From Planctomyces sp. (GTDB lineage Bacteria; Planctomycetota; Planctomycetia; Planctomycetales; Planctomycetaceae), in assembly GCA_019636235.1 (NCBI GenBank), contig JAHBXW010000001.1, positions 496,001 through 560,000 of the forward strand: DNA of 64,000 bases. Direction: 5' to 3'. The position numbers and the translations under genes are program-made. Positions 14,513 to 34,340 of the stretch are shown in pieces (position 1 is the stretch's first letter; every line of letters begins with the position of its first letter). The notes beneath the pieces are model-generated. The model had not been told where the DNA came from, did not search any database, and saw only the letters and a program-made list of their open reading frames with translations.

Positions 14513-16012
14513 ATGTCCCACGAGAGTATTCGGACGGCCGTCCAGCTGATCCTGCCTGAGTGCATCCTGATCGGCACGGTCTGCGTAATGTTCCTGACCG
14601 GCCCGTTCCTGCTCGGACGGAACGGTCAGGCGTCGCCCGGGTTGCGCCATCGTTGGGGTGCGCTGGCCCTGCTGGCGATCGGCGCGGCCGCCTGGCAGTG
14701 GTGGCATACGACGCCCGTCGCCGCGATCGACGGCCCGTTCCTCAGCGACGGCCTGTCGTTCACGATCCGCGGCATCGTCCTGGCGCTGGGCGCCGTGCTG
14801 GTGCTGGCCGCCTGGAATCAGCTGGACGACCGGACGTCCGCGGAATGCAACGCCTGTCTGCTGGCGCTTCTGGCCGGCGTGAACCTGACGGCCGCGGCGA
14901 ACGACATCATCACGCTGTTTCTGGGTCTCGAACTTGTCAGCATACCGACGTACCTGCTGCTGTACCTGCCGACGCGGTCGCGTCCGGCACAAGAGGCGAC
15001 GATCAAGTACTTCCTGTTGAGCCTGTTTTCCTCGGCGATGCTGGTCTACGGGCTGGCGCTGCTTTACGGGGCGACCGGCACGACGATGCTGCCGGAAATT
15101 GTGGAGCTGCTGAAGGCGACCTCGCTGACGGAGTCGCCGCTGCTGCTGATCGCGGCGCCTCTGATTGCGGCCGGCCTGGGATTCCGGATCACGGCCGTGC
15201 CGTTCCACTTCTACGCGCCGGACGTATTTCAGGGAGTGCCGGCGTTCATGGCGGCGCTCCTGTCGTTCATTCCCAAAGTGGTGGGCTTCACCGCGCTGTG
15301 GCGGCTGACGGCGCTGACGTCCCGGGCCGCCGCGGAGAGCGCGGATGCGGTCAGCACCTATATGGCTTCGGTGCTGGCGGTGCTGGCCGTTCTGACGATG
15401 TTCATCGGAAACCTGATGGCCCTGCGGCAGTCAAACCTGCATCGTCTGCTGGCGTATTCCAGCGTCGCCCACGGAGGATACATGCTGGTGGGACTGTTGG
15501 CGGGGGGCGGATCGTCCGGCGTTCCGGGGGGCGCGGCGCTGTTGTTCTACCTGGCCGCGTATGGATTTATGACGATCGGCGCGTTTTGCATTCTGCTCGC
15601 GGCCCGTCGCTCGGGAGATTCCATTCGCACGATCGACGAACTGGCCGGGCTGGGAAGCAGCCAGCCGCTGGCGGCGCTCGTGCTGTCGGTGTTCCTGTTC
15701 AGCCTCGCGGGACTGCCGCCGACAGCCGGGTTTCTGGGCAAATTCAACCTGTTCCTGGCCGCCTGGTCGAGCGGCGTTTCGGGGACCCGCTGGCTGGCCG
15801 TCATCCTGGCGATGAACGCGGCGATTTCCGCGTGGTATTACCTGCGGTTGATCGGCGTGATGTACCTGCAGTCGCCGCAACCCTCGACGGCGGACGCGCC
15901 GACCCGCAATCTGCCGGCGTGGATCGCAACGGCGGTCTGCGTGGCGGGGACGCTGGGCCTGTTCCTGGTGCCGCAGGCGGTGTGGGACGCGGCCCTGCTG
16001 GCGACGCAGTGA
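14513..16012 (+). CDS. nuoN: NADH-quinone oxidoreductase subunit N
   Basis: The product is 499 aa from the ATG at 14513, preceded by AGGAAGG. It is a proton-channel subunit of respiratory complex I, with about 14 membrane helices. Canonical antiporter-like motifs are intact: FLGLELVSIPTYLLLY (channel Glu), ATIKYFLLSLFSSAMLVYG, the lysine-poor AVPFHFYAPDVFQGVPAFMAALLSFIPKV, NLHRLLAYSSVAHGGYMLVG, and LAGLPPTAGFLGKFNLF. It is isolated. No nuoM or nuoL of complex I is beside it; the NuoL/NuoM-like genes at 25-28 kb belong to the DAB module. nuoE and nuoF lie 42 kb away, so complex I genes are dispersed. Confidence 0.93.
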   Translation: MSHESIRTAVQLILPECILIGTVCVMFLTGPFLLGRNGQASPGLRHRWGALALLAIGAAAWQWWHTTPVAAIDGPFLSDGLSFTIRGIVLALGAVLVLAAWNQLDDRTSAECNACLLALLAGVNLTAAANDIITLFLGLELVSIPTYLLLYLPTRSRPAQEATIKYFLLSLFSSAMLVYGLALLYGATGTTMLPEIVELLKATSLTESPLLLIAAPLIAAGLGFRITAVPFHFYAPDVFQGVPAFMAALLSFIPKVVGFTALWRLTALTSRAAAESADAVSTYMASVLAVLAVLTMFIGNLMALRQSNLHRLLAYSSVAHGGYMLVGLLAGGGSSGVPGGAALLFYLAAYGFMTIGAFCILLAARRSGDSIRTIDELAGLGSSQPLAALVLSVFLFSLAGLPPTAGFLGKFNLFLAAWSSGVSGTRWLAVILAMNAAISAWYYLRLIGVMYLQSPQPSTADAPTRNLPAWIATAVCVAGTLGLFLVPQAVWDAALLATQ

Positions 16013-17515: not shown

Positions 17516-19573
17516 ATGCCGGAGTCAGACCGCCCACTTTCCGACCCGCCGATGACGGCCTCGAACGCCGAGGACACGTTGCGGCAGGACGTCTCCGACC
17601 AGGCGCGTTCCAGCCGCCTGAGCCGCCTGCCCGAGGCGCTGCCGGGGAAGACGCCCGGCTACGAAGTGCAGCGCTGCCTGGGCGAAGGCTCGTTCGGCTC
17701 GGTGTGGCTGGCGACCGAGACGCGGACCGGCAGACAGGTGGCGATCAAGTTCTACACGCACCGCAAAGGACTGGACTGGTCGCTTTTGAGCCGCGAGGTC
17801 GAGAAGCTCGCGGTGCTGTATACGTCGCGGAACATCGTCGGGCTGCTGGATGTGGGCTGGGATCACGAACCGCCGTATTTCGTGATGGAATACCTTGAGC
17901 AGGGGGCGCTGTCGGCCCGGTTGTCGGACGGCGCGTTGCCTGTCGACGACGCAGTCCGGATCGCACGCGAAATCCTGCACGCGCTGATCCATGCCCACAA
18001 CAGCGGCATCCTGCACTGCGACGTCAAACCCGCGAACGTGCTGATTGATTCCGGCGGCTCGTCCCGCCTGGGAGATTTCGGTCAGTCGCGGCTGACCACC
18101 GAACAAAGCCCCGCGCTGGGCACGCTGTACTACATGGGGCCCGAGCAGGCCGTGCTCGACGGCACGCCGGACGCGCGCTGGGACGTCTACGCGCTGGGCG
18201 CGCTGCTGTATCATATGCTGACCGGCAGCCCCCCCTACCGGACGGCCGGGAACGAAGCCAGGTTGCGTGCCGCCGGCGCCCTGGAGGAACGACTGGAGGC
18301 GTACCGCGGCATTCTCGCGGCCAGTCCCCGGCCCGACGCGCATCGCCGGCGGCATGGCGTCGATCCGGCCCTCGCGCAAATCGTCGACGGCTGTCTCGAA
18401 CGCGATCCCCAGCTGCGGATTCCGAACGCTCAGGTGGTCCTCGATCTGCTGGACGAACGGGACAAGTCGCTGGCCAAGCGGCCGCTGATGATCCTGGGCG
18501 TCGTCGGACCGATCCTGTTTCTGCTGACGCTGTTGACCGTCGCGGCGATCGCCGTCCCCAAGGCGGTGGCGACGGCCGAACGGAACCTGACAGACCGGGC
18601 GCTCGCGACGGACGTCGTCGCGGCGAAGATTCTGGCCGCCAGCGTGCAGCAGGAATTCGACGTCCGGCAGAAGGAACTCGAGGACGTCGCCGATTCTCTG
18701 GTTCCCGGCGACGAAGCGGATTCGGGCGAACTTCGCCCCGACCTGCAGGCGTTTCTCGATGGCTGGCACGCCACGGCCGCACAGCGGCTGGAGGAACAGA
18801 ACCGCACGGCTGACGAGAGCATCTTCGTCGCGAATGCGGTCGGCTTTCAGGTGTATCGCCAGCCCCGGGACGCGACGATTGGCGGCGACTTCGCCTGGCG
18901 CGATTACTTCCACGGCCAGGGTCGCGAACTGCCTCGCGGCACTCGAGCCCAGCCCCGCACGGCGCCCGGCATTTCCCGGGCGTATCGCAGCAGTTCGTCC
19001 CGGCAATACAAGGTCGCCGTTTCGGTCCCGATCTGGAATCGAGACCGGACACGGGTCGTCGGCGTTCTGGCGCGAACGATCAACCTCAACGATCTGCTCA
19101 ATCAATGGGAGGCCCGGATTCGGGCGCGGGACGACGCCGGCCCCGCCCTGCCCTCCGACGCCGTTCGCGACCGGTTTCTCGCGCTGGCCGATCTTCGCGA
19201 CACGCCCGCGCACCTGCTGGACCATCCCTGGATGTCCGAGCAGGACTCCGAGGAACTGGAGGATGAGCAACTCAAGAACCGGCTGCAGCTGACCGACGAG
19301 CAAACGCACTTGCTGCGGACGCGCGATCGGGATGCGCACTACGTCGACCCGCTGGCCGACCAGGATCCGCGGTTTCGCGGTCCCTGGCTGGCGGCGTTTT
19401 CGCCGGTCGGGACTTCCGGCTGGGTGGCGATCGTCCAGGAGCTGAGGGCGGTGGCAGTCGAGCCGGTCAACGAGTTGCGCAACGTGTTCTTGCGGTACGG
19501 CGTATTGGCGCTGCTGGCGTTCATCGCCGTGTTCGCGCTGTTATGGATGCTGATCCGTCGGGCGGCGCGTTAG
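17516..19573 (+). CDS. Transmembrane Ser/Thr protein kinase with extracytoplasmic Cache-like sensor
   Basis: The product is 685 aa from the ATG at 17516; an ATG at 17552 is also possible. The N-terminal PknB-type kinase (about residues 48-310) has the glycine loop LGEGSFGSVW, K78, E94, catalytic loop H167-C-D-V-K-P-A-N174, and D187-F-G. The usual Arg of HRD is Cys here, so it is a non-RD kinase. Activation-loop end YYMGPEQ is intact. TM1 is at about 323-347 and TM2 at about 656-680. Between them about 300 residues resemble a double-Cache ligand-binding domain (RDYFHGQGRELP-like, ISRAYRSSSSRQYKVAVSVP, RTRVVGVLARTINL). It should pass an external signal to cytoplasmic phosphorylation. Its stop overlaps the convergent histidine kinase by 4 bp. 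Confidence 0.92.
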   Translation: MPESDRPLSDPPMTASNAEDTLRQDVSDQARSSRLSRLPEALPGKTPGYEVQRCLGEGSFGSVWLATETRTGRQVAIKFYTHRKGLDWSLLSREVEKLAVLYTSRNIVGLLDVGWDHEPPYFVMEYLEQGALSARLSDGALPVDDAVRIAREILHALIHAHNSGILHCDVKPANVLIDSGGSSRLGDFGQSRLTTEQSPALGTLYYMGPEQAVLDGTPDARWDVYALGALLYHMLTGSPPYRTAGNEARLRAAGALEERLEAYRGILAASPRPDAHRRRHGVDPALAQIVDGCLERDPQLRIPNAQVVLDLLDERDKSLAKRPLMILGVVGPILFLLTLLTVAAIAVPKAVATAERNLTDRALATDVVAAKILAASVQQEFDVRQKELEDVADSLVPGDEADSGELRPDLQAFLDGWHATAAQRLEEQNRTADESIFVANAVGFQVYRQPRDATIGGDFAWRDYFHGQGRELPRGTRAQPRTAPGISRAYRSSSSRQYKVAVSVPIWNRDRTRVVGVLARTINLNDLLNQWEARIRARDDAGPALPSDAVRDRFLALADLRDTPAHLLDHPWMSEQDSEELEDEQLKNRLQLTDEQTHLLRTRDRDAHYVDPLADQDPRFRGPWLAAFSPVGTSGWVAIVQELRAVAVEPVNELRNVFLRYGVLALLAFIAVFALLWMLIRRAAR

Positions 19574-20985
19574 GCGCCCGCGGCGGCAATGAGTCCGGAT
19601 TCCGAATGGGCGGCGACGAGCGGCAGCCGCACGATCATCCTTGTCCCGTGTCCCGGCTGGCTTTCACAGCGGATGTCCCCGCCGTGCGCGGCGACGACCG
19701 ACTGGCAGATGCTCAGCCCCAGCCCGCTGCCGACAGCGGCGCCGCGGGTTCGAGCGCGATCCGCGCGAAAGAACCGGTCGAAGACATGCGGGAGATCGAC
19801 GGAAGCGATGCCCACGCCCGTGTCCTCGACGATGAGTTCCGCCTGTCCAGCGGCTTTGTCGGACGTCAGGACGATGCGGATCCGCCCGCCTTCGGGCGTG
19901 TACTTGATCGCGTTGTCGAGGAGATTGTTGACCACCTGCCAGAGGTGCTCCCGCTGGCCGGCGACTGTCGCCGGAGCGGTCCCCTCGACGTCCAGCGACA
20001 CGCCCCGGGATTCCGCAACCCCCTGAAACATGGCCGCGGACTTCACCACCAGCGCGGCGAAGTCCACCGGCTCGACCTGCGTCTTGAGCCGCTCGTTTTC
20101 CGTTTCGGAAATCAGCAGCAACTGGTTCAACAGGATCTGCAACGAGCCGCACTGGTCGATGACGTCGTCCAGCAGCTCGCGGTATTCCGCCGCGGAGCGG
20201 TCGCTGTTGAGCGCCACTTCGACGCAGCTGCGAATCGCCGCCAGCGGCGTGCGAAGCTCATGGGCTGCGTTGGCCAGGACGTCTCGACGATGGTCCAGGA
20301 CGACGGCGATGCGGTCGAGCAGGCCGTTGATCGTGGACGCCAGCCGATCGAGTTCGTCTCCCGTCCCTCGCACCGGCAGCCGTTCATCGAGATGGTCGGG
20401 CCTTAGCCGCCGGGCGGTGCGGGTGATGTCGCCGATCGCTGTCGTCGCCCGACCGGCCAGAAGCCATGCCCCCAGCGGAGCTCCCAGCAGCATCAATCCG
20501 CCGGTCAACAGCGCGAGACGGTCGATCCGGGCGACCTCGGACCGCAGCAGCCGCAGCTCTTCGCCGACGAGCACGCTGGCAACTCCGTGCGGATTCGCGG
20601 CGATCTCCCGCACGACGCTGCGGTCATCCCCCGGTTCAGCGGCCGACGTGGCTCGAGACGCCCACAGAATCCGCCCCGCACTGTCTCGGAGCTCGACGAA
20701 CCAGCCATGGTGCTGATGTCCGGCGGCCTTCCGCTCCAGCTCTCCCAGGACAGAGTCGAACTCGCCGCGGGGCGTGTCCCGCAGCGCCAACTCAATCTCA
20801 GAGATGTCCTCAGCCAGCACTTTGTCCGCCTCATGGAGCAGCGCCCACATGACGCCCTGCCGGAGGACGGCAAGCGTGACCAGCGCCGTCGCGGCCACCG
20901 CCAGCGCGTTCCATGCCGCCAGCCGCAGGCGCAGCGATCCCAAGCGGCGCGCCCGCCCGGTGCTCGAACCCGAAGTCGGCATCAT
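19570..20985 (-). CDS. Sensor histidine kinase (HAMP-HisKA-HATPase), partner of the adjacent OmpR-type regulator
   Basis: The product is 471 aa. TM1 is at about 21-45, with a periplasmic sensor of about 110 residues, TM2 at about 156-178 and HAMP at about 180-232. HisKA has H242 in NAAHELRTPLAAI. The ATPase has NLLDNAIKYTPEGG, DTGVGIA, FDRFFRADRA and GSGLGLSI. The start codons ATGATG overlap the regulator's stop (ATGA), so the kinase is translationally coupled to the response regulator. Layout and H-box match the heavy-metal/CusS-QseC class, but the periplasmic domain gives no ligand. The pair is divergent from the dabA operon. A regulatory link to that operon is possible, not shown. Confidence 0.94.
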   Translation of the reverse strand: MMPTSGSSTGRARRLGSLRLRLAAWNALAVAATALVTLAVLRQGVMWALLHEADKVLAEDISEIELALRDTPRGEFDSVLGELERKAAGHQHHGWFVELRDSAGRILWASRATSAAEPGDDRSVVREIAANPHGVASVLVGEELRLLRSEVARIDRLALLTGGLMLLGAPLGAWLLAGRATTAIGDITRTARRLRPDHLDERLPVRGTGDELDRLASTINGLLDRIAVVLDHRRDVLANAAHELRTPLAAIRSCVEVALNSDRSAAEYRELLDDVIDQCGSLQILLNQLLLISETENERLKTQVEPVDFAALVVKSAAMFQGVAESRGVSLDVEGTAPATVAGQREHLWQVVNNLLDNAIKYTPEGGRIRIVLTSDKAAGQAELIVEDTGVGIASVDLPHVFDRFFRADRARTRGAAVGSGLGLSICQSVVAAHGGDIRCESQPGHGTRMIVRLPLVAAHSESGLIAAAGA

Positions 20986-21701
20986 ATTGCCTCAGGGGAA
21001 GGCGGACTGTCGTCCGGCGGACGCCCCTCCTCCGGAGCCCGCAGGACATATCCCCGGCCGCGCACGGTGTGCAGCATCGGTTCCGGAAAGTCGCGGTCCA
21101 TTTTTGCGCGGAGCCGCGTGATGTGCACCTCGATCACATTCGTGACTCCCTCCCAGTCGGACTCCCAGAGATGCTCGCAAAGCATCTTTCGACTGACGAC
21201 CTGCCCGGCATTCCGCATCAGAAACTCGAGCAGGCTGAACTCGGTCGGCGTCAGGTCGATGTCGCGGCCCTCGCGGAGCACCCGCCGCAGCGACAGGTCC
21301 AGAGTCAGCGGGCCGACCGACATCTGCTGCGACTGCCGATGAATGGCGCGCCGCGTCACCGCCACCAGCCGAGCCAGTAATTCCGGAAAGGCGAACGGCT
21401 TGACGAGGTAGTCGTCGGCCCCCGCGTCGAGCCCCGCCACGCGATTCTCCACAGAGCCCAGCGCGCTCAGCACCACAACCGGCGTCTGGACGCCCCGGGC
21501 GCGGATCCGCCTCAAGATCTCCAGCCCCGGCAGATCCGGAAGGTTCAGGTCCAGGACAATGACGTCGCAGCGCTGCGCTGACGCCGCCTCCAGCCCCTCC
21601 AGGCCGTTCTGGACCCAGTGGCAGCCGTGGCGGTGCTCGTGCAGCCCCCGCTGCAAAGCCTTGCCCAGCACGAGATCGTCTTCAATCACCAGGATGTCCA
21701 C
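20982..21701 (-). CDS. OmpR/PhoB-family response regulator
   Basis: The product is 239 aa from GTG at 21701 (reading VDILVIEDD), chosen because GGAGGAGAAGG sits directly upstream. A TTG eight codons earlier would cut into that ribosome-binding site. The receiver domain has acidic D8/D9, phosphoacceptor D51 in VLDLNLPD, and K101 in DDYLVKPF. The winged-helix domain has LTPTEFSLLEFLMRNAGQVVS, TNVIEVHITRLRAKMD and HTVRGRGYVL. It is the first gene of a two-gene operon with its kinase, overlapping by 4 bp. It is divergent from dabA across 296 bp that contain two TTGTAAYCCG repeats, a possible self- or cross-regulatory site. Confidence 0.95.
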   Translation of the reverse strand: MDILVIEDDLVLGKALQRGLHEHRHGCHWVQNGLEGLEAASAQRCDVIVLDLNLPDLPGLEILRRIRARGVQTPVVVLSALGSVENRVAGLDAGADDYLVKPFAFPELLARLVAVTRRAIHRQSQQMSVGPLTLDLSLRRVLREGRDIDLTPTEFSLLEFLMRNAGQVVSRKMLCEHLWESDWEGVTNVIEVHITRLRAKMDRDFPEPMLHTVRGRGYVLRAPEEGRPPDDSPPSPEAI

Positions 21702-21824
21702 CGCGCCGCCTTCTCCTCCACGCAAGCGTCAGGGGCGCGGTGCATCGCGCCGAAACCTCATTCTATGCCGGCCACCTGCCAGGAAATCCCGCCGCGGGCG
21801 GCCCCCGGGCGAATTCTGACAGGT

Positions 21825-21884
21825 TTGTAACCCGTCGGCGGCGACAGACGGCCGACCCGCCGCGCCTTGCAGAGTTGTAATCCG
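21825..21884. promoter_or_regulatory. Direct repeat TTGTAAYCCG in the response-regulator/dabA divergent promoter region
   Basis: TTGTAACCCG (21825-21834) and TTGTAATCCG (21875-21884) are the only AT-richer islands in the 296-bp divergent spacer. They are spaced by exactly 50 bp, about five helical turns. OmpR-type regulators often bind direct repeats. Binding by the adjacent regulator is an inference. Confidence 0.35.
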
Positions 21885-21997
21885 ATTCGTCGTCCGCATC
21901 GACGGGCGCGGCCCTACAAGTTGGACCAGCCGACCCGGCGCCCCGCCTGACGCGGATCGCGGACACGGGCCGGACATGCGTCTCCAGGCCCGCCGTC

Positions 21998-24900
21998 ATG
22001 ACGACTGTGCTGGATGTCGAACAACCGTCGACAGAGTCCGATCCGCTGACCGATCGGCTTGAAGCGCTCCGGGCGATCATCGAACACGCCGCGCACCTGC
22101 TTCCCGCGCAGGGGCCGATCACGGCGTTCGTCCATCACAACACGCTGCACGCGTTCGAGCACCTGCCATTTGAAACGGCTGTCGTTCAGGCGGCGAAGGT
22201 CTTCGGCTGCCACCCGTTTCTGTCCGAGGAGCATTACCGGCGGGAACTGGAGCGGGACCGCATTCGGGAATCGGATCTGGAGGCGGTGCTGCGGGAGGAC
22301 CTCGGACCGGCGGCGGACGATCCGCTGCTGGGAGTGACGCGTCTCGATCTGCGGATGACGATGCTGCGCTGTCCGGTGCGGACGGCCCCGGCGGCGGAAC
22401 TCCGGTGGCTGGTCGCGGAGGCGGATGCGCTGCGTCGGTTTCGCAGCGCAGCGACGCCGCAGATGCGGTCCCGCATGATCCAGGACACGCGGCGATGGGT
22501 GATGCGCGAAGTGCGTTCCAAGTCCGCTCCCCGACCCGGCGACGCCTGCCGTCCCGTCTGGCTGCCGGACCTGTTCAGGGAATTCGGCGGCGCCGCGGAG
22601 GATCGCTGGTCGGACGAGGCCTGGGAATCGTTCACGCTCAGCACATTGTGGCGGCTGTGCGTCGAGGGGGTTCGCGACGTGCGGAGCTTCGCCGAGCCGC
22701 ACATCGAGCCGGTTCGGCATCGGGACGTCCTGCTGGAGGCCGCGGGCGTCGACGCGGACCTGGAAGTGCACGAGACGCTGATCCGGTTCTGCGCCGCGTT
22801 CGTCGACCAGGGGTTCGCGCCGTGGCCGCTGCCGGGGCGGGAGTTCGGACTGCTCGACGCGTTCGTGGAACTGCACAGCGGCGGCCCATCCGTCTCTTTC
22901 AACTGGATGGCGGACGTCCGCCGCGACCTGCAGGACATCCGTCGGCAGGGCCGCAGCCCGTTGGAATCGATCGACGATTCTCTGCGCCGGCTGGGCGTGA
23001 GGGACGACGAACGCCCGGATTTCATCCGCGCGACGCTGCTCGCGCTCCGCGGCTGGGCCGGCATGATTCAGCAGTTGGAGACCCGGTCGGATCGCGCCGC
23101 GCGGCCGCTGCCCCGCGGAAGCCTCGTCGGCTTTCTGGCGATCCGTCTGCTGCTCGACCTGCACGCTGCGCGGCATCTCGCGCGATCGCATTTGGGCCGG
23201 GACGTCGATTTGCGGACGTTGCGTTCGGAACTGCGTCTGAGTCTCGCGACCGCGTCCGGCCCCGCCGCCGAATCGCGGGCCTTTCAGATGTTTCAGGTGG
23301 CTCAGTTCGTGGGCTGGAAGCCGGCCGAGCTGGCGGGTTTGACCAAGTCGGACTGGTCTCTTTTGCTGCAGGAGGTTGAGAGCTTCTCCAGCCTGGCCCG
23401 CCGGCGGGTGATGCATCTTGCGTTCGAGCGCCGATATCGACTGCGGGCGCTGGATGCGATCTCGCTTCGCGCCGCACAGAAGCCGGCCGAGCGGGTGACG
23501 CCGCAGTTTCAGGCGGTGTTCTGCATCGACGAGCGCGAAGAATCTCTGAGACGTTCGCTGGAGGAGCTGTGTCCTTCGGTGGAGACCTTCTCGGTCGCCG
23601 GGTTCTTCGGCGTCGCGATGTATTACCGCGGCGCCGGCGACGCGCACGACATCCCGCTGTGCCCGGTGATCATCCGCCCCCAGCACTGGGTCCGGGAGGA
23701 AGTCGTCGAGAGCCTCGAGGACGAGCACCGCCGCCGCGCTCAGCAGCGGCGACTTCTTGGCCAAGCGTCTCATCACCTGCACGTCGGCAGTCGCACGTTC
23801 ACGGTCGGCGCGCTGTTGACGACGCTGTTCGGCCCGCTCGCGTCGGTGCCGCTGATCGCCCGCGTCCTGGCGCCCCGGCTGACGGGCCAGTTGCGTCGCC
23901 GGGCCGCGCAGGTCGTGCAGCCCCCTCCCCGGACGCGGCTGCGGCTGGAGCGCCGCGCGGAGCAACCGGGACCGACCGGCGACCACGTCGGCTATTCGGT
24001 CGAGGAGATGGCGACGATCGGCGAACGCGTGCTCCGCGACATGGGCCTGACGCGGCACTTTGCCCGCCTGATCTTTCTGATCGGGCATGGCTCCAACAGT
24101 CTGAACAATCCTCACAAAGCGGCCTACGACTGCGGCGCGTGCGCGGGCTCCGCAGGCGGCCCCAACGCCCGCGCCCTCGCGAAACTGCTCAACGATCCGG
24201 GGGTTCGCAAGCGGCTCGCGGAACGGGACGTGCCGATCCCCGCGGAAACGCTGTTCGTTGGCGGCTGGCACAACACGTGCGACGACGCGCTGCAGTTCTT
24301 CGACACGGAATCAATCGCTCCGGCCCGCCGAAGCGAGCTGCTGGACGCGCTCAGCGTTCTCGAGAGCGCCTGCGATCAGAACGCGCACGAGCGCTGCCGG
24401 CGCTTTCTGTCGGCGCCGCTCGACTTGACGTTCGAGGAGGCGCGGCGGCACGTGCAGGAGCGCGCCGAGGACCTCGCGCAGACCCGTCCCGAGTGCGGAC
24501 ATGCGACGAACGCGCTGTGCATCGTCGCCCGGCGGTCGCGGACGCGCGGGCTGTTTCTCGACCGCCGCGCCTTCCTGCAGTCGTACGATCCGACTCGCGA
24601 CAGCCCCGATGCGCCGATCCTGACTCGCATTCTGCAGGCCGTGATCCCCGTCTGCGCCGGAATCAATCTCGAGTACTACTTCTCGTTCGTCGATCCGATC
24701 GGATACGGCTGCGGCACCAAGCTGCCGCACAACGTGGCGTCGCTGCTGGGCGTCATGGACGGACCGTCCAGCGATCTGCGGACCGGACTGCCGTGGCAGA
24801 TGGTCGAGATTCACGAACCGGTCCGCCTGTCGTTCGTGATCGAGACGACTCCCGAGACGCTGCTGCGCGTGCTGGACGCCAATCCCGCCCTCAAGCAGTT

Positions 24901-25135
24901 ATGCGTGCACCGCTGGGCGTATGTGTCGACGCTCGACCCGTCGAGCGGCCGGATCCATGACTACCGCGACGGCCGGTTCGAACCTTACGTCCCGCAGTCG
25001 CAGGAGCTGCCCGCGGCCGACACGTCCGCGGAGTGGTACCGGGGCTGGCGCGATCACCTGGGCTTCGCCCTGATCCGCGACGCGCTGCATCCCGTGCGGC
25101 CCGCGGACATCGAAACCGATCGGCGGGGAGCGTGA
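21998..25135 (+). CDS. dabA: DabA-type inorganic carbon uptake protein (DUF2309/UPF0753)
   Basis: The product is 1045 aa. It is the cytoplasmic, zinc-dependent, carbonic-anhydrase-like subunit of a DAB pump, thought to hydrate CO2 vectorially with energy from the DabB proton subunit. The family start [22 protein letters not shown] is typical when read in parts: PITAFVHHN and [10 protein letters not shown]. All four zinc-site residues known from Halothiobacillus DabA (C351, D353, H524, C539) have counterparts: C509 and D511 in [10 protein letters not shown]697 in [10 protein letters not shown], and C712 in YDCGACAG. The H-to-C spacing is identical at 15. It is the first gene of a four-gene operon; the next ATG lies 2 bp past its stop. 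It is divergent from the two-component genes. Active-site conservation suggests a working enzyme. Confidence 0.93.
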
Positions 25136-25137
25136 CC

Positions 25138-26529
25138 ATGGAGGGCTGGACGATTCCCTGGATCGCGTGTTCGCTGGTGATCGGCGCGCCGGTGCTGCTG
25201 CTGGCGACGCTCGGCCTGGCGTTGCTGCTGGAGACCGGCATCAGCGAACGGATGATCAGCCGGCTGGTGCAGTTCTCCGTGCTGACGGGGCTGACGGGCG
25301 CGGTCGCCATGCTCGTCTGGATGCTGGCCACGGGAGAACGGGACGTGCCGTTCGAACTGGGGAACTGGGTGTCGATTCCCCAGCAGCACTTTCATTTCCG
25401 GCTGAAGTTCCTGTTCGACCGGCTGTCGATTCCATTCGCCATCATGACCTACCTGCTGGTGGGAACGATCGGCGCGTTTGCCGACAAGTACCTGCATCGC
25501 GAGCCGGGATTTCGGCGGTTCTTCATGTGCTACAGCCTGTTTCTGCTGGGCATGATTCTGTCGACGCTGGCGGGGACGATTGAGACGCTGTTCGCCGGCT
25601 GGGAACTGGTGGGGCTGTCGTCGGCGCTGCTGGTGGCGTTCTTTCAGGAGCGTCCCGCGCCGGTCCGCAACGGGCTGCGGGTGTGGACGGTGTACCGGAT
25701 CGCGGATGCGGCCTTCATTGTGGCGGCGGTGAGCCTCCATCACCTGACGGGCGAAGGGGATTTCGACGCCTTGACGGGTTACGGGGCCTGGCCGACGGGA
25801 CAGACGACGATGTCCGCAGGGCAGGCGCTGTTCGTGGGCAGCCTGCTGCTGGTGGCCGCCGCGGGCAAATCGGGACTGGTTCCGTTCTCCGGCTGGCTGC
25901 CCCGCGCGATGGAAGGCCCCACGCCGTCGAGCGCCGTGTTTTATGGCGCGCTGTCGGTGCATCTGGGGGCGTTTCTGCTGCTGCGCGTCAGCCCCATTCT
26001 CGAACGGTCCCCGCTGTTGTGCGGGCTGGTCGTCGGGTTCGGGCTGGCGACGGCGGCGGTCGGCGCGCTGTCAGCCCGCACGCAGACGGACATCAAGTCC
26101 GCGCTGGCGTTCGCGTGCGTCACGCAGGTGGGCATCATCACAGCGGAGATCGGCCTCGGGTTTCGGTATCTGGCGCTTTGCCACATCATTGGTCACGCTT
26201 CCCTGCGAACTCTGCAGATGCTGCGGGCGCCGTCAATTCTCCGCGACTACCACACGCTGGAGAACGCGATCGGCGGCCGGCTGGCGCCGTCGTCCCGGAT
26301 CTGGCAGCGGATGGCGTGCAGCCGCATCGGAACCTCCCTGTATCGGCTGGGATTCGAACGGGGCGGGCTGGATGCGAGCCTTGATCGCTGGATCGTGCGG
26401 CCATTTTTGAAGTTGCTGACGGCCTGCGACGGCTGGGAGCGCCGCTGGACCGACTTTCTGTCGGGCGGCGGCTCGCGCGAATCGGACCAGGTGCGTCCCG
26501 CGCCGCAGCCGCTGGAGGAACTCCTGTGA
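25138..26529 (+). CDS. dabB: DabB-like proton-conducting membrane subunit (NuoL/ND5 family)
   Basis: The product is 463 aa from the ATG at 25138, with GGGGAG at the end of dabA as ribosome-binding site. It is a polytopic Proton_antipo_M protein. Proton-path residues of NuoL-type channels are kept: E156 in [12 protein letters not shown]244 in [20 protein letters not shown]320 in [18 protein letters not shown]. In DAB systems this subunit couples the proton gradient to CO2 hydration by DabA. The protein lacks the long C-terminal lateral helix of complex I NuoL, as expected for DabB. Its last codons overlap the start of the next gene (GTGA), so the two are translationally coupled. The position directly after dabA makes the assignment firm. 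Confidence 0.9.
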
Positions 26530-28028
26530 GCGAACTTCACTTTCCGTGGCTGGAAGCGGGCGTGCTGTTGCCGCTGATCGGACTCTTGAGCCTGATCGGC
26601 TGCCGCGACTCCGAACAGGTGCGCCGCCGGACCATCCTGACGCTGTCGATCACGCTGCTGACGACGCTGGGGGCGGCCATCGATTTCTTCCAGAACGGCT
26701 CGCGCGCCGCGCATGACCATTGGGACGCGCTGCGGCAGCTGGCGGGGCGGGATGTGCTCATGATTGACGCCTTGAGCGCCCCGCTGCTGCCGCTGACGGC
26801 GATGCTCTCGCTGGTGACGGCCCTGTCGACCCCCAGCACGAAGCGGCGGCGGTTTCCGTTCGGCTGGAACCTGGTGAGCACGTCGCTGCTGCTGGCGACG
26901 TTCTCCAGCCGGGCCCCGGGGGACGTCGTCCTGCTGACGACGCTGGGCATGCTGCCGCCGCTGATGGAACTCGTGGGCCGCAAGCGGCCCGTGCGGGTGT
27001 TTTGCCTGCACATGGGGTTGTGCGCGGCGCTGCTCGTGTCGGGCTGGTGGTTGTCGCAGTCAGTCTCGCCGACGGCGGCCGTGTGGGGAGCTGGGTTGCT
27101 GCTCGCCGGGGTGCTGGTCCGCAGCGGCGTCGTGCCGGTGCACTGCTGGCTGACCGATCTGTTCGAGCACGCGACCTTCGGCTCGGCGCTGTTGTTTGCG
27201 ACGCCGATGGTGGGCGCGTATGCCGCGGTCCGGCTGGTGCTGCCGATCGCCCCGGACTGGATGATTCGCAGCCTGGCGCTGGCGTCGCTGGCGACATCGG
27301 TGTACGCGGCGGCGATGGCGCTCGTGCAGACGGAGGCGCGGCGGTTCTTCTGCTACGTGTTCCTCAGCCACTCCGCGCTGGTGCTTGTCGGCCTGGAGAC
27401 CGCGACGCCGATCAGTCTGACGGGTTCGCTGGCGGTGTGGCTGTCCTCGGCGCTTGCGCTGACGGGGTTCGGCCTGACGCTGCGCTCGATGGAGGCGCGG
27501 ATCGGGCGGATCTCGCTGGCGAACTATCACGGGATGTACGAACACACGCCGACATTGGCGATCTTCTTTCTGCTGACCGGCCTGGCGAGCGTGGGCTTCC
27601 CCGGAGCGTTCGGATTCATCGGCGCCGAGCTGCTGGTCGAAGGCGCGGTCGCGGCGTATCCCGGCGTCGGGACGGCGGTCGTGCTGGCCGCCGCGCTGAA
27701 CGGGATTGCGGTGCTGCAGGCCTATTTCCGCGTGTTCACCGGGGTCCGCCATGCGAGTGCGATTCCGCTGCGGATCGGCGCCCCCGAGCGGGCGTCGGCG
27801 CTGGTGCTGACGGCCCTCATCGCCATCGGCGGGCTGATTCCACAGCCGTACATTTCGTCCCGGTATCAGGCGGCGCTGGAGATCCATGAATCGCGCGCGC
27901 TGCGAGGCGCTGCGTCGCCCCCCGTCGTCCGAAGAGCTCAGACGGCGTCGCCGTCCCCCTCCTTGACTGAAGTCCCGCCCCGCGCGGCCCGTTCCCAGGA
28001 TGCCCTGCATGTTCGCACCGACCACTGA
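26526..28028 (+). CDS. Second antiporter-like membrane subunit (NuoM/ND4-like) of the DAB operon, with altered proton-path residues
   Basis: The product is 500 aa from a GTG overlapping the dabB stop (GTGA). About 13-14 hydrophobic helices show ND4-family patterns such as [19 protein letters not shown] and [20 protein letters not shown]. By my hand alignment, the residues that carry protons in NuoM are changed: G141 for the TM5 Glu, R199 for the TM7 Lys, M228 for the TM8 Lys, and an Arg-Arg in [14 protein letters not shown] for the next Lys. It could therefore be a structural rather than a pumping partner. Typical DAB systems have only DabA and DabB. Its C-terminal 50 residues are a polar tail ([15 protein letters not shown]) overlapping the next gene. 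Confidence 0.85.
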
Positions 28029-30048
28029 GATTCCCCGAGGCAATGCCGCCGGCTTCCGGACGTATTTCCGGCGCGACATCACTTCCGGCTTTCTGGTGTT
28101 CCTGATCGCCCTGCCCCTCTGCCTGGGCATTTCGCTGGCCAGCGGATACCCCTCGCTGGCGGGCGTCTTCACGGCCATCATCGGCGCGGCGCTGGCGACG
28201 GCGCTGAGCAACTCGGAACTGACGATCAAGGGCCCCGCGGCCGGACTGATCGTCATCGTGCTGGGCGCGGTCGAAGAGTTTGGCGGTCGGGGGTTCATGG
28301 CGGCCGGAGGGCCAACCGCGGCCGACTGGCAGGCCTACAAAATGGCGCTCGCCGTGACGGTCGTGGCCGGCGTCCTGCAGATCCTGTTCGGACTGTTCCG
28401 GGCCGGCATCCTGGGCGAGTTCTTCCCGACCTCCACCGTGCATGGCATGCTGGCCGCCATCGGCGTGATCATCATGGCCAAGCAGTTCCCGGTCGCGCTG
28501 GGCGAATCGAACAAGGGCGAACCGCTGGAGCTGCTGCTGAAGTTTCCGCAGTTCGTCCTGGAGGCGAACCCGGCCATCGCCCTGATTGGCATGACCAGCC
28601 TGGCGATCATGTTTCTGTGGCCCTCCCTCCGACGCCGGCTGGGTCCGATCGGCGCAATCCCATCGCAGCTTGTCGTGCTGCTCGTCTCCGTCCCGATGGC
28701 CAGCGCGTTCGACCTGCTGCATCAGCACTCGTACACATTCTGGGGCAGCACGTTCGAACTCAGCGACCAGTTCCTGGTAAAGATGCCAGAGCGGATGTTC
28801 GGCATGTTCGCGGAGCTCACGGCGCCCGATTTCGGGGCGCTGGCGCTGCCCGCGGCCTGGAAGTGGGTGATGCTGTTCTTTCTGATCGGCAGTCTGGAGT
28901 CGATGCTGAGCGCCAAGGCCGTCGATCTGCTGGATCCCTGGAAGCGCAAAACGAACCTGAACCGGGACCTTGTCGCGGTGGGGATCGCGAACACGACGTG
29001 CGGACTGGTGGGCGGCCTGCCGATGATCTCAGAGATCGTGCGCAGCCGGGCGAACATCGACAACGGCGCGCGGACGCGGTTCGCCAACATGTGGCACGGC
29101 GTGTTTCTGCTGATCTGCGTGGCGCTGATTCCGACGTGGCTGCACCGCGTGCCGCTGGCGGCGCTGGCGGCGATGCTGGTCTATACCGGCACCCGGCTGG
29201 CGCATCCGACAGAGTTCATCAACCTGTACCGGATCGGCCGCGAACAACTGGTGATCTTCTGCGCGACGATCGTCGGCGTGCTGGCGACGGATCTGCTGAT
29301 CGGCGTGGGCATCGGCATCGCCGTCAAACTGTTCATCCACACGATCAACGGCGTGCCGCTGAAGTCGCTGTTCAAGCCGTTCCTGGAAGTCGAGCCGCAG
29401 GATGAGTCGACCTGCGTGATCCGCGCCTATCGCTCGGCGGTCTTCACCAACTGGATTCCGTTCCGCCGGCAGATCGAGGACCTGGGGCTCGTGCAGCGGC
29501 AGAACATCATTCTGGACCTGGCGCAGACGCGCTATGTCGACCACAGCACGATGGAGAAGCTCCACGAGCTGCAGGAAGACTTCGAGCACGAGGGGCTGCG
29601 GCTGGACATCATCGGCCTGGACGATCACCGGCCGATGACGGAGCACGCGGCATCGGCCCGGAAGCGGGTGCTGCCGCGAATGCGCCGCATCACGATCGTC
29701 GCCGAAGCACGGCACGAGGACCTGATCCGCGAGCGTTCGCTGGAGCTGGGGACATCGAACCTGACAATCATCCCCTGCTATGGGACCTCGCGGCCGCTGC
29801 AGGACGACGGATTGGGCGACGCGGAGCGGCTGGTGCGCGTTGAACTGGTGGTTCCATCGCGGTCGGCGGAATCGGCGCTGATGTCGCTGCGCCGCGACCT
29901 GACGCCGGCCTGCCGGGCGCTGGTGTGCGCTGAAATGGTGGAAGTCGTGAACGCGGAGCTGTTTGAACAGCCGATGCTGCGTCCCGCGGCGGGCGTGATA
30001 CGGCCGGCAGCCGCCACAGCGGAAGCACTGGAAACAGCGGCCGTCTGA
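28009..30048 (+). CDS. SulP-family anion (bicarbonate?) transporter with STAS and C-terminal PII-like domain
   Basis: The product is 679 aa from the ATG at 28009 (AGGA 8 nt upstream; an ATG three codons earlier is possible), overlapping the previous gene by 20 bp. Residues 10-440 are a SulP/SLC26 membrane domain ([46 protein letters not shown]). A STAS domain follows (about 460-550; [22 protein letters not shown]). Residues about 558-652 then look like a PII/SbtB-like fold: RRITIVAEA at the start, [20 protein letters not shown] in the middle and [14 protein letters not shown] at the end. These parallel SbtB strand positions by eye. The operon context points to bicarbonate as substrate; sulfate is the alternative. 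The PII-like tail is an inference needing a profile search. Confidence 0.88.
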
Positions 30049-30137
30049 ACCGAATCCTGTCCCCAAGAGCATTGCGGAGCCGTCGCCGGTTCGGCCCGAT
30101 TCAAGGTCGCTCCGCGTGCGGTCTCGAACTACAATCC

Positions 30138-30153
30138 ATCAACATGGGTTGAT
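30138..30153. promoter_or_regulatory. Palindrome ATCAAC-ATGG-GTTGAT upstream of the cytochrome/DUF1549 gene
   Basis: A perfect 6-bp inverted repeat with a 4-bp spacer lies 21 bp before the ATG at 30175. A -10-like TACAAT (30130-30135) precedes it. It could be an operator or a leader hairpin covering the ribosome-binding region. Evidence is sequence symmetry only. Confidence 0.35.
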
Positions 30154-30174
30154 TTGTCCGAGAGGCCGACCTGC

Positions 30175-32802
30175 ATGACGCTCCGACTGCTGACCGCCAT
30201 CGCGACCTGCGTGGGATTCGCCTCCCCCGCAACGTCCAATGACGATTCGCTGCTGTTTGAACGGGACATCCGCCCGATCCTCAAGCAGCACTGCTTTCAC
30301 TGTCACGGCGAAGAACCTGAGAAGCACGGCGGCCTGGATGTCCGGACTGTGAAGAGCATGCTTCGCGGCGGCGAATCGGGCCCTGTTCTGGTCGCCGGGT
30401 CGGCCGACGGCAGCCATCTCTGGCAGCGGGTGTTCAGCGATGAAATGCCGGAGGGTACGAAGAAGGTTCCTGCCGATCAGAAGCAGAAGCTGCAGGCCTG
30501 GATTGAACAGGGCGCGCGAACGGCCCGGGATGAACCGGACGACCCCGAGTTGGCGCGGTTCACCGAGGAGGAACTGTCGCACTGGGCGTTCCAGCCCGTC
30601 CGCCGGCCCGATCTCCCATCGCTGCCCGAGCGCACGCGCACGGCGGCCGATCATCCGATCGACGCCTTCATTCTGTCGCGGTTGAGCGCCGCCGGAATCA
30701 CGCAATTGTCGCCCGAGGCCGACCGCCGCACGCTGATCCGGCGGGCCACGTTCGACCTGCTGGGGCGTCCGCCGACCCCCTCAGAAGTGGAGGAGTTTCT
30801 CGCCGACGATACGACAGATGCGTTCGCCGCGCTGGTCGATCGACTGCTCGCGTCCCCTCAGTACGGAGAGCGCTGGGCCCGGCATTGGCTGGATGTCGCC
30901 GGTTATGCGGAGACGGACGGCGGCGTCGGCCCCGAGACCGAACGGCCTCACGCCTGGCGGTATCGCGACTACGTCGTCAACAGCCTGAACGCCGACAAGC
31001 CCTACAACGAGTTTCTCGTCGAGCAACTCGCCGGCGATGAACTGGCCGTGAAGCCCTACGACATTTCCGATCCGCGAACGCTCGAACTGCTCACCGCCAC
31101 GGGCTTCCTGCGAATGCCGCCGGACGTCACCCAGACGTCCAACACGCTGATGGACCGGAACCAGGCGGTCGCGGACGTCGTCAAGGTCGTCGGCTCGGCC
31201 GTGCTGGGACTGACGGTCGGGTGCGCCCAGTGCCATGATCACAAGTACGATCCGATCGCGGCGGAGGACTACTACCGGGTGCGGGCCGTGTTCGATCCGG
31301 CGTTCAACATCCACGCGTGGCAGCAGCCCGGCAACCGCCTGATCGACATCACCCCCGCCGATGTGATTGCCGCGGCGGACGCTATCGAAGTCCAGGCCGC
31401 CGAACGCGACAAGTCGTTGCACGAAGAAATGACTGAGGCGGCGCGGCAGGTCTTTGAACGCGAGCTGGCGCGTGTCCCGGAGGACCAGCAGACCGCCGTC
31501 CGGACGGCCATCGAAACCGCCGAGGGCGATCGCACCGACGAACAAAAGGCGTTGCTGCTGGAGCATCCGAACGTCAAGACCATCGACTTCATCCGCGGGT
31601 TCTTCGTTGAGTACGACCGCGAGCTGCACGCGCGGTTCAACAAGGCCCGGGAGGAGATCGCCGCGATCCGTGCGACGCGTCCGCCGCGACAGTACATTGC
31701 CGCCGCGTTTGAGCCCGCAGGCCCGGCGCCGGAAAGCCGATTGATGTTCCGCGGCGATCCCGAGCAGCCGAAGCAGACCGTCGCGCCGGGGGAATTGACC
31801 GTGCTCGATCGCGGCCAGGAGTTTCGCTGCGCCTCCCCGGAGGGAGAGCCGTCAACCAGCGGCCGGCGCCTGGCGTATGCCCGCTGGCTGACGCGCGACG
31901 ACCATCCGCTGGTAGCCCGCGTGATGGTCAACCGCGTGTGGCTGCACCACTTTGGGCGCGGGCTCGTCGGCACGCCGGGCGATTTCGGTTTGAACGGCGA
32001 AACGCCGACGCACCCGGACCTGCTTGACTGGCTGGCATCGGAGTTTGTCGCCGAGGGCTGGAGCCTCAAGACAATGCACCGCCTGCTGATGACGTCGGCC
32101 ACGTACCGCCAGCGGTCGCTCCGGACGCCGGAACTCGACGTGGCCGATCCGGACAACCATCTGCTGGGCCGCACGAATCTCCGCCGGCTGGAGGCCGAGG
32201 CTGTCCGCGACGCGCTGTTGGCGGTCAGCGGCCAACTGAGCGACGAGGTCGGCGGCATGTCGACGCCGATCACCGAGGACGGCGAAGGACAGGCCGTGTT
32301 CGGACGGCGGCAGACAGCCGAGGGCCTGTTCTCCGGAGTCGCCGGGATCGGGCGGGACGAGTTCCGCCGCAGCCTGTATCTGCAGTCAAGGCGGGCGTTG
32401 CCGCTGTCGATGCTCGAAGTTCTCGACCTGCCGGCGATGACGCCGAATTGCGATCAGCGGCGGAATTCCACCGTCGCCACCCAGTCGCTGCTGTTCATGA
32501 ACAACGAACAGGTCTGGAAGCTGGCGGAGTTGACGGCGGAGCGCATCGCCGCGGAACGACCCGCGGAGACGGAACGGCAGATTCAGCTCGCGTATCTCCT
32601 GCTGTTCGGGTCGGAACCCGCGCCGGACGAGTTGGCCGCCTGCCGCGAGTTCGTGGCCGAACAGACGACGGCGTTCCGGGACTGGGCGGACGACGCCTGG
32701 AAGACGCGGATCGAGCAGAATCCCTCGGCCGCCGAACAGCGGGCGCTGGCCGCGCTCTGCCAGACGTTGATTTGCAGCAACCGGTTCTTGTACCTCGACT
32801 GA
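30175..32802 (+). CDS. Planctomycete cytochrome c (PSCyt1) - DUF1549 - DUF1553 protein
   Basis: The product is 875 aa from the ATG at 30175 with AGAGG upstream; the TTG seven codons earlier is unlikely. A signal peptide ([18 protein letters not shown]) precedes a planctomycete cytochrome C domain with a CxxCH heme site ([18 protein letters not shown]). DUF1549 follows (about 170-375; [39 protein letters not shown], a second CxxCH). DUF1553 is at the C-terminus ([26 protein letters not shown]-type motif, split here as [12 protein letters not shown] and [15 protein letters not shown]). It is exported and heme-binding, and such proteins are expanded in planctomycetes, where a role in polysaccharide breakdown is suspected but unproved. 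The DUF1501 gene 80 bp downstream is its usual operon partner. Confidence 0.92.
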
Positions 32803-32882
32803 GAAGTTTCAACGCAACCGTTCGCACGGTTGCCCACGCCCTGGCCCCGCTGACCGCGACACTCGACCGCCGAAATCCACCG

Positions 32883-34340
32883 ATGAATCGACCCGGCCTT
32901 TGCTCGCGACGCCATTTCCTGTTCTCCAGCGCCTTCGGGCTGGGCACGCTGGGCGCGCTCGACCTGTTGCAGCGCGACGGTTTGCTGGCCGCCAGCGGCC
33001 CGCCGTCCAAGCCGGAAGACCCGCAGACATTCGACCTGCTTCCGAAGGCGCCGCACTTCGAACCGCGCGCCCGGGCGATGATCTCGATCTTCCTGATCGG
33101 CGGTCCCAGCCAGATCGACCTGTTTGACTACAAGCCGCGCCTCAAGGAGCTCGACGGCCAGGACTTCCCCGGGCAGGTGCAGTATGACAATCCCGCGCAG
33201 GCCAGCCGCAAGGTCCTCGGCCCCCCCTGGCCCTATCGCCGCTACGGCGAGTGCGGCATGGAGATGGCCGAACTGCTGCCGCACATTGGCGGAGTCGCGG
33301 ACGACATCTGCCTGATCCGCTCGATGCATAGCGCGGTGAACAATCACCTCCCCGGCATGTACGCTCTCAACACCGGCAAAGGCGTGGGCGGCCGGGCGAC
33401 GCTGGGGAGTTGGCTGACGTATGGTCTGGGCAGTGAAACGCAGGACCTGCCGGCCTTCGTGGCGATGACCGACCCGCGGGGTCTGCCGCTGATCGGCGGC
33501 GAGAACTGGACGAACGGTCCGCTGCCGTCGACCTTCCAGGGAACCGTCGCCCGCCCGCGGAACCCCCGCATCCTGAACCTCGACGCTCAGGAATTCCTCC
33601 GCGGACGACCGCAGGCCGCGCAGCTCGACCTGTTGCGCACTTTGAACGCGAACCATCTCGAACAGCACCCGGGCGAATCCGATCTGGCCGCCCGCATCGC
33701 CAGCTACGAGCTCGCCGCGCGGATGCAGCTGGCCGCCAAGGAGGCCTTCGACATTTCGCAGGAAACCGAAGAGACCCAGCGGCTGTACGGCATCGACGAT
33801 CCGACAACGAACGACTACGGCACGCGCTGCCTCATCGCCCGGCGGCTCATCGAGCGCGGCGTCCGTTACGTGCAGCTCTGGAACCAGGGGCAGAGCTGGG
33901 ACCATCACTCGAGCATCGGCTCGGAACTGCCGAATCGCTGCCGCGAGGTCGATCAGCCGTCGGCCGCGCTGGTTTCGGACCTCAAGCGTCGGGGCCTGCT
34001 CGACTCGACGGTCGTCCACTGGGGAGGCGAGATGGGGCGTCTGCCGACGATCCAGGTCGTGCCGGGCTCGGCCAGCGATCGGGTTGGCCGCGATCACAAC
34101 ACGCACGGCTTCGCGATGTGGGTCGCGGGCGGCGGGTTCCAGAAGGGACTGACTTACGGCGAAACAGATGAGTTTTCCCATCACGCCGTCGAAAACGTCG
34201 TGCATCACACCGACTGGCTGGCGACGCTGCTGAATCAGTTCGGCCTGGACCACTCGCAGCTCAGTTACGTGCGCAACAACCAGTTGATCACGCTGCTGGA
34301 CGGGCAGGACGCGCGGGTCGTCCGGGAGATTCTCGCCTGA
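32883..34340 (+). CDS. DUF1501 domain protein with twin-arginine signal
   Basis: The product is 485 aa from the ATG at 32883; the frame stays open into the previous gene but that part is shadow. The N-terminus has a Tat motif (C-S-R-R-H-F-L-F-S-S). DUF1501 features are AMISIFLIGGPSQIDLFDYK, the KVLGPPWPYRRYG region, SMHSAVNNHLPGMYALNTG, GVRYVQLWNQGQSWDHHSS, VVHWGGEMGR and GRDHNTHGFAMWVAGGG. It is related to the alkaline phosphatase/sulfatase superfamily, with His/Asp clusters suggesting a metal site. It is exported folded. It is the standard partner of the upstream cytochrome-DUF1549-DUF1553 protein. Enzymatic activity unproved. Confidence 0.93.
   Translation: MNRPGLCSRRHFLFSSAFGLGTLGALDLLQRDGLLAASGPPSKPEDPQTFDLLPKAPHFEPRARAMISIFLIGGPSQIDLFDYKPRLKELDGQDFPGQVQYDNPAQASRKVLGPPWPYRRYGECGMEMAELLPHIGGVADDICLIRSMHSAVNNHLPGMYALNTGKGVGGRATLGSWLTYGLGSETQDLPAFVAMTDPRGLPLIGGENWTNGPLPSTFQGTVARPRNPRILNLDAQEFLRGRPQAAQLDLLRTLNANHLEQHPGESDLAARIASYELAARMQLAAKEAFDISQETEETQRLYGIDDPTTNDYGTRCLIARRLIERGVRYVQLWNQGQSWDHHSSIGSELPNRCREVDQPSAALVSDLKRRGLLDSTVVHWGGEMGRLPTIQVVPGSASDRVGRDHNTHGFAMWVAGGGFQKGLTYGETDEFSHHAVENVVHHTDWLATLLNQFGLDHSQLSYVRNNQLITLLDGQDARVVREILA

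Follow-up and report, generated by a model that had tools for sequence, protein, structure and literature searches.

A possible three-subunit vectorial carbonic anhydrase encoded by a dabA-dabB-ND4-like operon in Planctomycetota

Introduction

What would an inorganic carbon operon do in a bacterium without a detectable RuBisCO, and what would a second subunit derived from complex I do in such an operon? These questions are raised by four genes, dabA-dabB-ND4-like-sulP, at 21998-30048 of a 64,000-nucleotide stretch of a Planctomyces sp. genome (the window; positions 496,001 to 560,000 of contig JAHBXW010000001.1, assembly GCA_019636235.1), to which all feature coordinates below refer. A preliminary description, made from the sequence alone, took them for an expanded DAB-type operon that combines CO2 hydration with bicarbonate (HCO3-) import.

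The coupling model for the two-subunit DAB2 of Halothiobacillus neapolitanus (structures 9rd0, 9rd8 and 9rd9), given in a 2026 structure paper (PMC13144422), rests on one glutamate in a membrane finger of DabA and a histidine/lysine wire in DabB: finger E444 is essential, and mutation of DabB H260 or K347 impairs function. By family, active site and NuoL-like DabB partner the window operon is a DAC/DAB system. Its sequence is nevertheless not of the DAB2 type, because finger E444, H260 and K347 are all replaced and the last transmembrane segments (TM12-15) of DabB are missing. Judged by its genes and residues, it belongs to a deep DabA lineage, here called L-type, with a dabA-dabB-ND4-like core. 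We describe this lineage and weigh the mechanisms that it might use.

Results

The operon and its recurrence. The operon is real: four tightly packed open reading frames lie on the + strand, as the preliminary description had placed them, and profile search assigned each to a family. The dabA gene (21998..25135, 1045 aa) ends in a stop codon at 25135, and after a 2 bp gap dabB (25138..26529, 463 aa) starts with the ATG at 25138. It joins the ND4-like gene (26526..28028, 500 aa, GTG start) in a GTGA overlap at 26526-26529. The stop of the ND4-like gene at 28028 overlaps the sulP gene (28009..30048) by 20 bp from the ATG at 28009, or by 29 bp with the alternative ATG at 28000. The 2 bp and GTGA junctions are as first described; what had been called a 20-bp junction is this 20-bp overlap. 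A scan of 21600-30300 for sigma-70-like promoters found none, which is uninformative for Planctomycetota.

PF10070, the DabA family, was searched in 59 genomes (the host genome and 58 relatives), of which 38 match. The loci compared are 40 DabA regions from those genomes and 80 named loci, which are the top 80 of 558 relatives in a ranking by likeness to the window. They fall into two clearly distinct gene plans. In the S-type, a dabB (∼530 aa in most) is followed by a dabA (∼740–930 aa); in the L-type, a dabA (∼1045 aa) is followed by a dabB (∼463 aa) and an ND4-like gene (∼490 aa). A third plan, the M-type, has a dabA (frames of 844–922 aa; 1078 in locus L183) and then a DabB of 623–669 aa, with no separate ND4-like gene found at these loci.

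Outside the window there are 111 L-type dabA entries, of which 91 are followed by 3.3 kb or more of sequence. In 82 of those 91 the first three genes are again found in this order on one strand, so the operon is no chance arrangement; L033, which scored like the L-type yet is S-type, was left out of this count. The triad was also read in all five deeper L-type loci of other families (L187–L191); in L188 dabB lies in two frames, and in L189 the contig ends within the ND4-like gene. The three-gene core is widely conserved; the four-gene order proposed for checking is found in a subset only.

In a sample of 294 genomes of the phylum, 39 have a DabA at E 1e-20, and 19 of these, the host included, reach at least 700 bits and are L-like. 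The L-type loci among the top 80 of 558 relatives have record titles naming Planctomycetota or Verrucomicrobiota. Nine of ten plasmid controls (from Actinomycetota, Pseudomonadota and Halobacteria) have the order dabB-dabA; in the tenth, L157, dabA stands close to the start of the record, with no partner in the stretch. None of 123 plasmid records with a DabA match covers 80% of the window DabA, so no close L-type was found there.

Some loci depart from these plans. L-type DabA copies without adjacent DabB and ND4-like genes occur in L064, L066, L084, L088, L098, L109, L110 and L137; the contig of L064 ends near DabA, in L137 two DabAs converge and one of them has a DabB, and some assemblies with a lone DabA contain another copy. 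Within 23 kb, L121 (Verrucomicrobiaceae) carries an S-type pair and two L-type triads, one of which is flanked by SulP genes. S-type DabAs of ∼1080–1105 aa are found in L181, L182 and L185; in the first two DabB is ∼850–890 aa with a long extension, and L185 ends too near to see one.

DabA keeps the active site without the finger glutamate. The window DabA scores 804 bits against PF10070, covering positions 1–746 of the 747 in the profile, and 259 bits against the DabA2 of 9rd0. The zinc residues named in the preliminary description (C509, D511, H697 and C712) do align with C351, D353, H524 and C539 of the Halothiobacillus protein, with the 15-residue spacing from H to C that it gave. The motif C509-x-D511-x-R513, whose arginine aligns with R355, lies at 23522..23536, and H697 and C712 at 24086..24133. 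The equivalents of C351, D353, H524 and C539 are present in 112/112 L-type rows, window included, and that of R355 in 111/112; three duplicate pairs leave 109 distinct rows, and named rows below 700 aa are omitted from these counts. A degenerate L-type DabA, at 2707-5661 of L070, has lost the arginine of the dyad together with much of the motif around it.

The preliminary description had overlooked the absence of the finger glutamate. The finger region of the window DabA (residues 601–630, 23798..23887) is without Glu in the E444 column, as are all 112 L-type rows; 19 of 20 S-type rows have it. A second row set gave the same picture (absent in 6/6 L-type and 12/12 M-type rows, present in 4/5 S-type). 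Because the finger aligns poorly, acids were also counted regardless of column: the finger core has no Asp or Glu in 109/112 L-type rows and some in 20/20 S-type rows. Two of the three exceptions have an acid at the ends of the core, and the third is the degenerate copy of L070.

In the DabA tree the S-type (20 rows) is split from L- and M-types together (33 rows) with a support of 100 in the Shimodaira–Hasegawa-like approximate likelihood ratio test (SH-aLRT). M-type DabAs form a single clade (SH-aLRT 99) among the L lineages, its exact placement weakly supported. The DabA and DabB trees are quick trees without bootstrap. A seemingly conserved in-frame TAG in the DabA of a planctomycete family with small genomes was rejected, being on inspection the natural stop codon.

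DabB is shortened and its wire altered. The window DabB matches PF00361 (125 bits) and PF00662. Its nearest models are those of NuoL, well below model cut-offs; it scores 188 bits against a NuoL model and 96.5 against an NdhF3 model. The preliminary description held that DabB keeps the channel residues, and this is true of some. In NuoL numbering, the TM5 glutamate E144 is present in 92/92 L-type DabBs (0/19 S-type), and R175, D178 and K229 also in 92/92. Throughout the same 92 sequences, however, H254 is replaced by Tyr and K342 by Arg, where 19/19 S-type sequences have His and Lys; K399/D400 and the remainder of TM12-15 are missing. The 12 M-type DabBs likewise carry E144, Y254 and R342. These counts drop S_L040, an antiporter that is not a DabB, and omit named DabBs below 300 bits or outside 400–560 aa.

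Past TM11 the window DabB has no hydrophobic transmembrane segment, by sequence and by AlphaFold2 model. The model (predicted local distance difference test, pLDDT, 82) has TM1-11 of NuoL followed by a long C-terminal helix. Aligned to 8e9g_L with VIA-align (Z 48.0, root-mean-square deviation (rmsd) 3.7, 411 residues aligned), its residues 5–444 span 5–585 of the chain, which fits an arrangement in which TM12-15 are skipped and the lateral helix of NuoL is kept. The C-terminal helices (residues 395–442, 26320..26463) are called lateral-helix-like from this model, a motif match and an hhalign comparison of tail and helix that is weak (probability 18.9%, E 0.0012). In complex I, NuoL contacts NuoM through the side that holds the TM5 glutamate and through the lateral helix. 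L-type DabB thus appears to retain just these two NuoM-contacting features.

The 50 matches listed for the DabB fold do not include the DabA2-DabB2 structure of Halothiobacillus, which does not speak for a different fold. The DabB tree unites the S-, L- and M-types in one clade against NuoL (SH-aLRT 95), the M-type falling into two groups; one row labelled S-type, a hydrogenase-type protein of L176, falls outside the clade.

The third subunit is a degenerate NuoM relative. PF00361 matches the ND4-like protein with 81 bits, from residue 183 only, and the nearest models are those of NuoM, well below cut-offs. Its model (pLDDT 90, predicted template modelling score 0.88) has the full NuoM fold, matching NuoM 8e9h_M (Z 45.2, rmsd 2.2, 452 aligned) with NdhD3 of the cyanobacterial CO2 pump NDH-1MS (6tjv_D, Z 44.1) close behind. 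In the DabB tree it groups with NuoM (SH-aLRT 97) on a long branch, and an origin as a split-off of DabB is not supported.

The preliminary description saw a second antiporter-like subunit here; the subunit is present, but as a degenerate ND4-like protein rather than a second pump. Across 83 sequences, in NuoM numbering, there is never Glu at E144, Lys at K265, His at H348 or Glu at E407. K234 is Arg in 78/83 and K312 is Arg in 83/83; R272 is kept in 83/83. At the NuoM TM5 Glu, TM7 Lys, TM8 Lys and TM12 Glu the window protein has Thr139, Arg199, Met228 and Ala367. With the NuoM pump residues gone, a role as an extra proton pump was rejected. An acid is nonetheless found next to the E407 column: window E368 (27627..27629), in TM12, is Glu in 79 sequences, Asp in three and Gly in one, and is the proposed ion-path acid. 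The 83 rows exclude L040, L056 and L065, which are too long or truncated, and any named row that scores under 200 bits or falls outside 420–620 aa.

Some M-type DabBs end in an ND4-like half. The DabB tails of L183, L173+, L174- and L177+ score 43–49 bits against the ND4-like profile over TM10/11-13. As a control, two NuoLs give 9–11 bits there, and a third gives 20 bits over another stretch. The four tails have an acidic pair at the TM12 position, and an acidic residue lies at or beside that position in all 12 M-type tails. In profile–profile comparison the 12 tails match the ND4-like profile with 95% probability and NuoL with 53%. In at least one M-type group, then, sequence comparison has DabB joined to the ND4-like half that holds the TM12 acid, and the half that loses the pump residues is absent; fusion and fission appear equally compatible with these tails. 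L173, L174 and L177, from planctomycete genomes of 3.6–4.2 Mb in one family (f48), each have a pair of adjacent, divergent M-type dabA-dabB operons, in which one DabB is ND4-like-tailed and the other is long and different.

SulP is an optional fourth gene. The preliminary description counted a SulP carrier as part of the unit. The window has one (PF00916, 191 bits), but among 65 triads with at least 6.6 kb a SulP lies downstream in just 20 and on either side in 27, so it was rejected as a defining part of the operon and stands outside the conserved three-gene core. Among the 20 downstream SulPs three are distant (242–283 bits) and those of L039 and L144 are duplicates. A SulP also follows the M-type operon of L183.

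The C-terminus of the window SulP has STAS-like (15.8 bits) and PII-like regions (PF00543, 29680..29904, 21.3 bits with a cut-off of 25), both below cut-off. PF00543 scores 38.1, 38.0, 33.3 and 16.1 bits in the operon SulPs of L048, L060, L061 and L046; it has no match in L183, and several operon SulPs end after STAS. Against the BicA equivalog NF050096 the window protein scores 118.7 bits, with a cut-off of 880. Its nearest paralogue in the host (173 bits, as against 41 for the other host paralogue and 112 for E. coli DauA) starts ∼120 bp after a beta-carbonic-anhydrase domain match on the same strand. SulPs linked to carbonic anhydrases were argued to be bicarbonate transporters in Acidithiobacillus (PMC6458275). 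The operon SulP resembles such linked transporters (Acidithiobacillus can2-sulP, Rv3273 clade) in that its nearest host paralogue is the carbonic-anhydrase-linked one, and differs in its STAS-like and PII-like C-terminal regions and its place in a DAC operon. The likeness supports, without establishing, HCO3- transport by the operon SulP.

Genome context and neighbouring genes. A search of the entire 5.6-Mb assembly gave no match to the large subunit of RuBisCO, which extends the statement of the preliminary description beyond the window; carboxysome genes were not searched for. Since no RuBisCO was found, the demand for HCO3- must be other than the Calvin cycle. The host has one DabA, and it has matches to phosphoenolpyruvate (PEP) carboxylase and pyruvate carboxylase, which make anaplerosis a possible sink.

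Divergent from the operon lie genes for an OmpR-type response regulator (20982..21725, -; PF00072/PF00486), a candidate regulator of the operon, and a sensor histidine kinase that is presumably its partner (19570..20985, -; PF02518/PF00512/PF00672). Close relatives of the pair (response regulator above 250 bits, kinase above 300 bits) lie divergently upstream at 12 other loci among 115 DabA entries scanned, many of which end too soon to judge. In L093 and L131 a SulP lies in between. Directly downstream of the operon, at 30154-34340 (+), are genes for a PSCyt1/PSCyt2/PSD1 protein and a DUF1501 protein. A lone nuoN lies at 14456-16012 (+). The nuo cluster of the host, on contig C23, has NuoL and NuoM matches and no third PF00361 match nearby, and the window nuoN may be its missing subunit.

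Discussion

We give a probability of about one half to the reading that the operon encodes a DAC-family vectorial carbonic anhydrase of three subunits, with an ion path to which DabB and, by its C-terminal half, the ND4-like subunit both contribute. From gene order, residue patterns, predicted folds and the fusion-like DabB of relatives we infer that the three proteins form a complex coupled to an ion, with the path, direction and physiology as follows. DabA, a zinc subunit resembling beta-carbonic anhydrases, would hydrate CO2 at the cytoplasmic face. DabB and the ND4-like protein would form one ion path, to which DabB would supply ion pairs of the NuoL type and some of the cytoplasmic half-channel. 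TM9-13 of the ND4-like protein, with E368, would stand in for the exit half-channel, which in DAB2 is made up of DabB TM12-13 and DabA Glu444. Driven by the ion gradient, hydration would run one way, so that HCO3- accumulates and supplies carboxylases, for example PEP carboxylase and pyruvate carboxylase; SulP, where present, would add regulated HCO3- import. The four M-type DabB tails that match ND4-like TM10/11-13 provide a natural link of DabB to that half and thereby support a shared path.

It is tentative, with the odds somewhat against it, to go further and see in the L/M lineage a second mechanistic class of gradient-driven carbonic anhydrase. CO2 hydration would then be coupled by a path split over two complex-I-derived subunits that each keep roughly the half the other has lost, instead of by a glutamate on the DabA finger, and the system would be a stand-alone counterpart of the NdhF3-NdhD3-CupA tip of complex I in cyanobacteria.

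Several observations weigh against a three-subunit vectorial enzyme. Two beta-carbonic-anhydrase genes elsewhere in the host genome would, if their products are cytoplasmic and active, collapse the HCO3- gradient. The residue counts go back to a single deep split in the tree rather than to independent events. Nine of the 91 entries lack the triad (L137 twice, L066, L069, L084, L088, L098, L109 and L110), and the only genome of the same genus examined, G001, has no DabA match at all, which makes the trait patchy. The other eight M-type DabB tails score 5–18 bits, no nearer to the ND4-like profile than to NuoL, and the unusually long DabB of S-type L033 reaches 32 bits over a stretch that lies earlier in the profile and overlaps in part. 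Finally, the replaced H254 and K342 correspond to H260 and K347 of DAB2, changes at which impair that enzyme, so a DAB2-like proton path may be broken rather than re-routed.

That last point makes an uncoupled or differently coupled enzyme a serious rival. An L-type enzyme that had lost ion coupling would be a membrane-anchored carbonic anhydrase, freely reversible or gated, that balances CO2/HCO3- or pH together with SulP. Several titratable wire residues have indeed become Arg, Tyr or aliphatic in DabB and the ND4-like protein, and SulP neighbours recur (27/65). Loss of coupling would not, however, hold E144, R175, D178 and K229 in every one of 92 DabBs or the TM12 acid in 82 of 83 ND4-like proteins, and we think this account unlikely.

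The conserved zinc site and D-R dyad of DabA and the conservation of much of the cytoplasmic half of DabB (K229, K305, H334 and H338) would suit a DAB2-like system, in which protons pass through DabB and the DabA finger, the ND4-like protein is a passive scaffold, as its lost NuoM pump residues would allow, and SulP is an unrelated passenger. Such a path is improbable: the essential finger Glu and the equivalents of H260 and K347 (PMC13144422) are replaced throughout the L-type rows, the TM12-15 that hold the finger in DAB2 are missing from DabB, and a mere scaffold is hard to square with the ND4-like gene being retained in 82/91 entries. Coupling to Na+ or bicarbonate symport instead of protons, drawn by analogy from the staphylococcal homologue MpsAB, which is argued to use Na+ (reported in PMC13144422), seems the least probable, even though Lys-to-Arg would presumably disturb a proton wire more than a cation path.

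How, then, does the operon stand to known systems? With DAB2 it shares the PF10070 DabA with its zinc ligands and D-R dyad, and a NuoL-derived DabB with a partly conserved cytoplasmic half-channel. It differs from DAB2 in having dabA first, a shortened DabB, a third subunit, the replacements at Glu444, H260 and K347, and a TM5 Glu where DAB2 has Ile151. DAB1 of H. neapolitanus (hneap_0907-0909; PMC13144422) likewise has three genes, with DabA and a PF00361 subunit, but the extra gene, placed between dabA and dabB, is described there as coding for a small hypothetical membrane protein; the window has a 500 aa ND4-like protein after dabB. MpsAB of Staphylococcus aureus is, like our system, a DAC homologue in a non-autotroph (PMC13144422), but it has been proposed to be a Na+/HCO3- cotransporter with two functional genes; the product of mpsC, next to them, is a hypothetical protein said to have no functional part in it (PMC8552792). 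The Leptospirillum 'och' operon, reported for chromate tolerance (PMC9080137), has a NuoL-like gene first and then a DUF2309 gene, and looks like a two-gene DAC.

NDH-1MS (CupA-NdhF3-NdhD3; 6tjv) is similar in that a CO2-hydrating zinc subunit sits on an ND5-like subunit beside an ND4-like one (PMC6981117), and its NdhD3 is among the best fold matches of the window ND4-like protein. CupA is helical, however, where DabA is beta-carbonic-anhydrase-like, and NDH-1MS is redox-driven within complex I.

Three-subunit DACs are already in print. A description of an ND4-like DAC subunit was not found in a literature search that had most subscription journals outside its reach, nor in the examined parts of PMC10880623, PMC12628692, PMC9080137 and PMC8552792; the same search found no paper for DUF2309 with Planctomycet.

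In the sequences examined, the L-type lineage keeps the active site, lacks the coupling residues of DAB2 and adds a complex-I subunit. It is a natural experiment on how membrane energy might drive one-way CO2 hydration, and its parts resemble those of the cyanobacterial NDH-1MS CO2 pump. This points to a lineage that may have its own way of coupling CO2 capture to the membrane.

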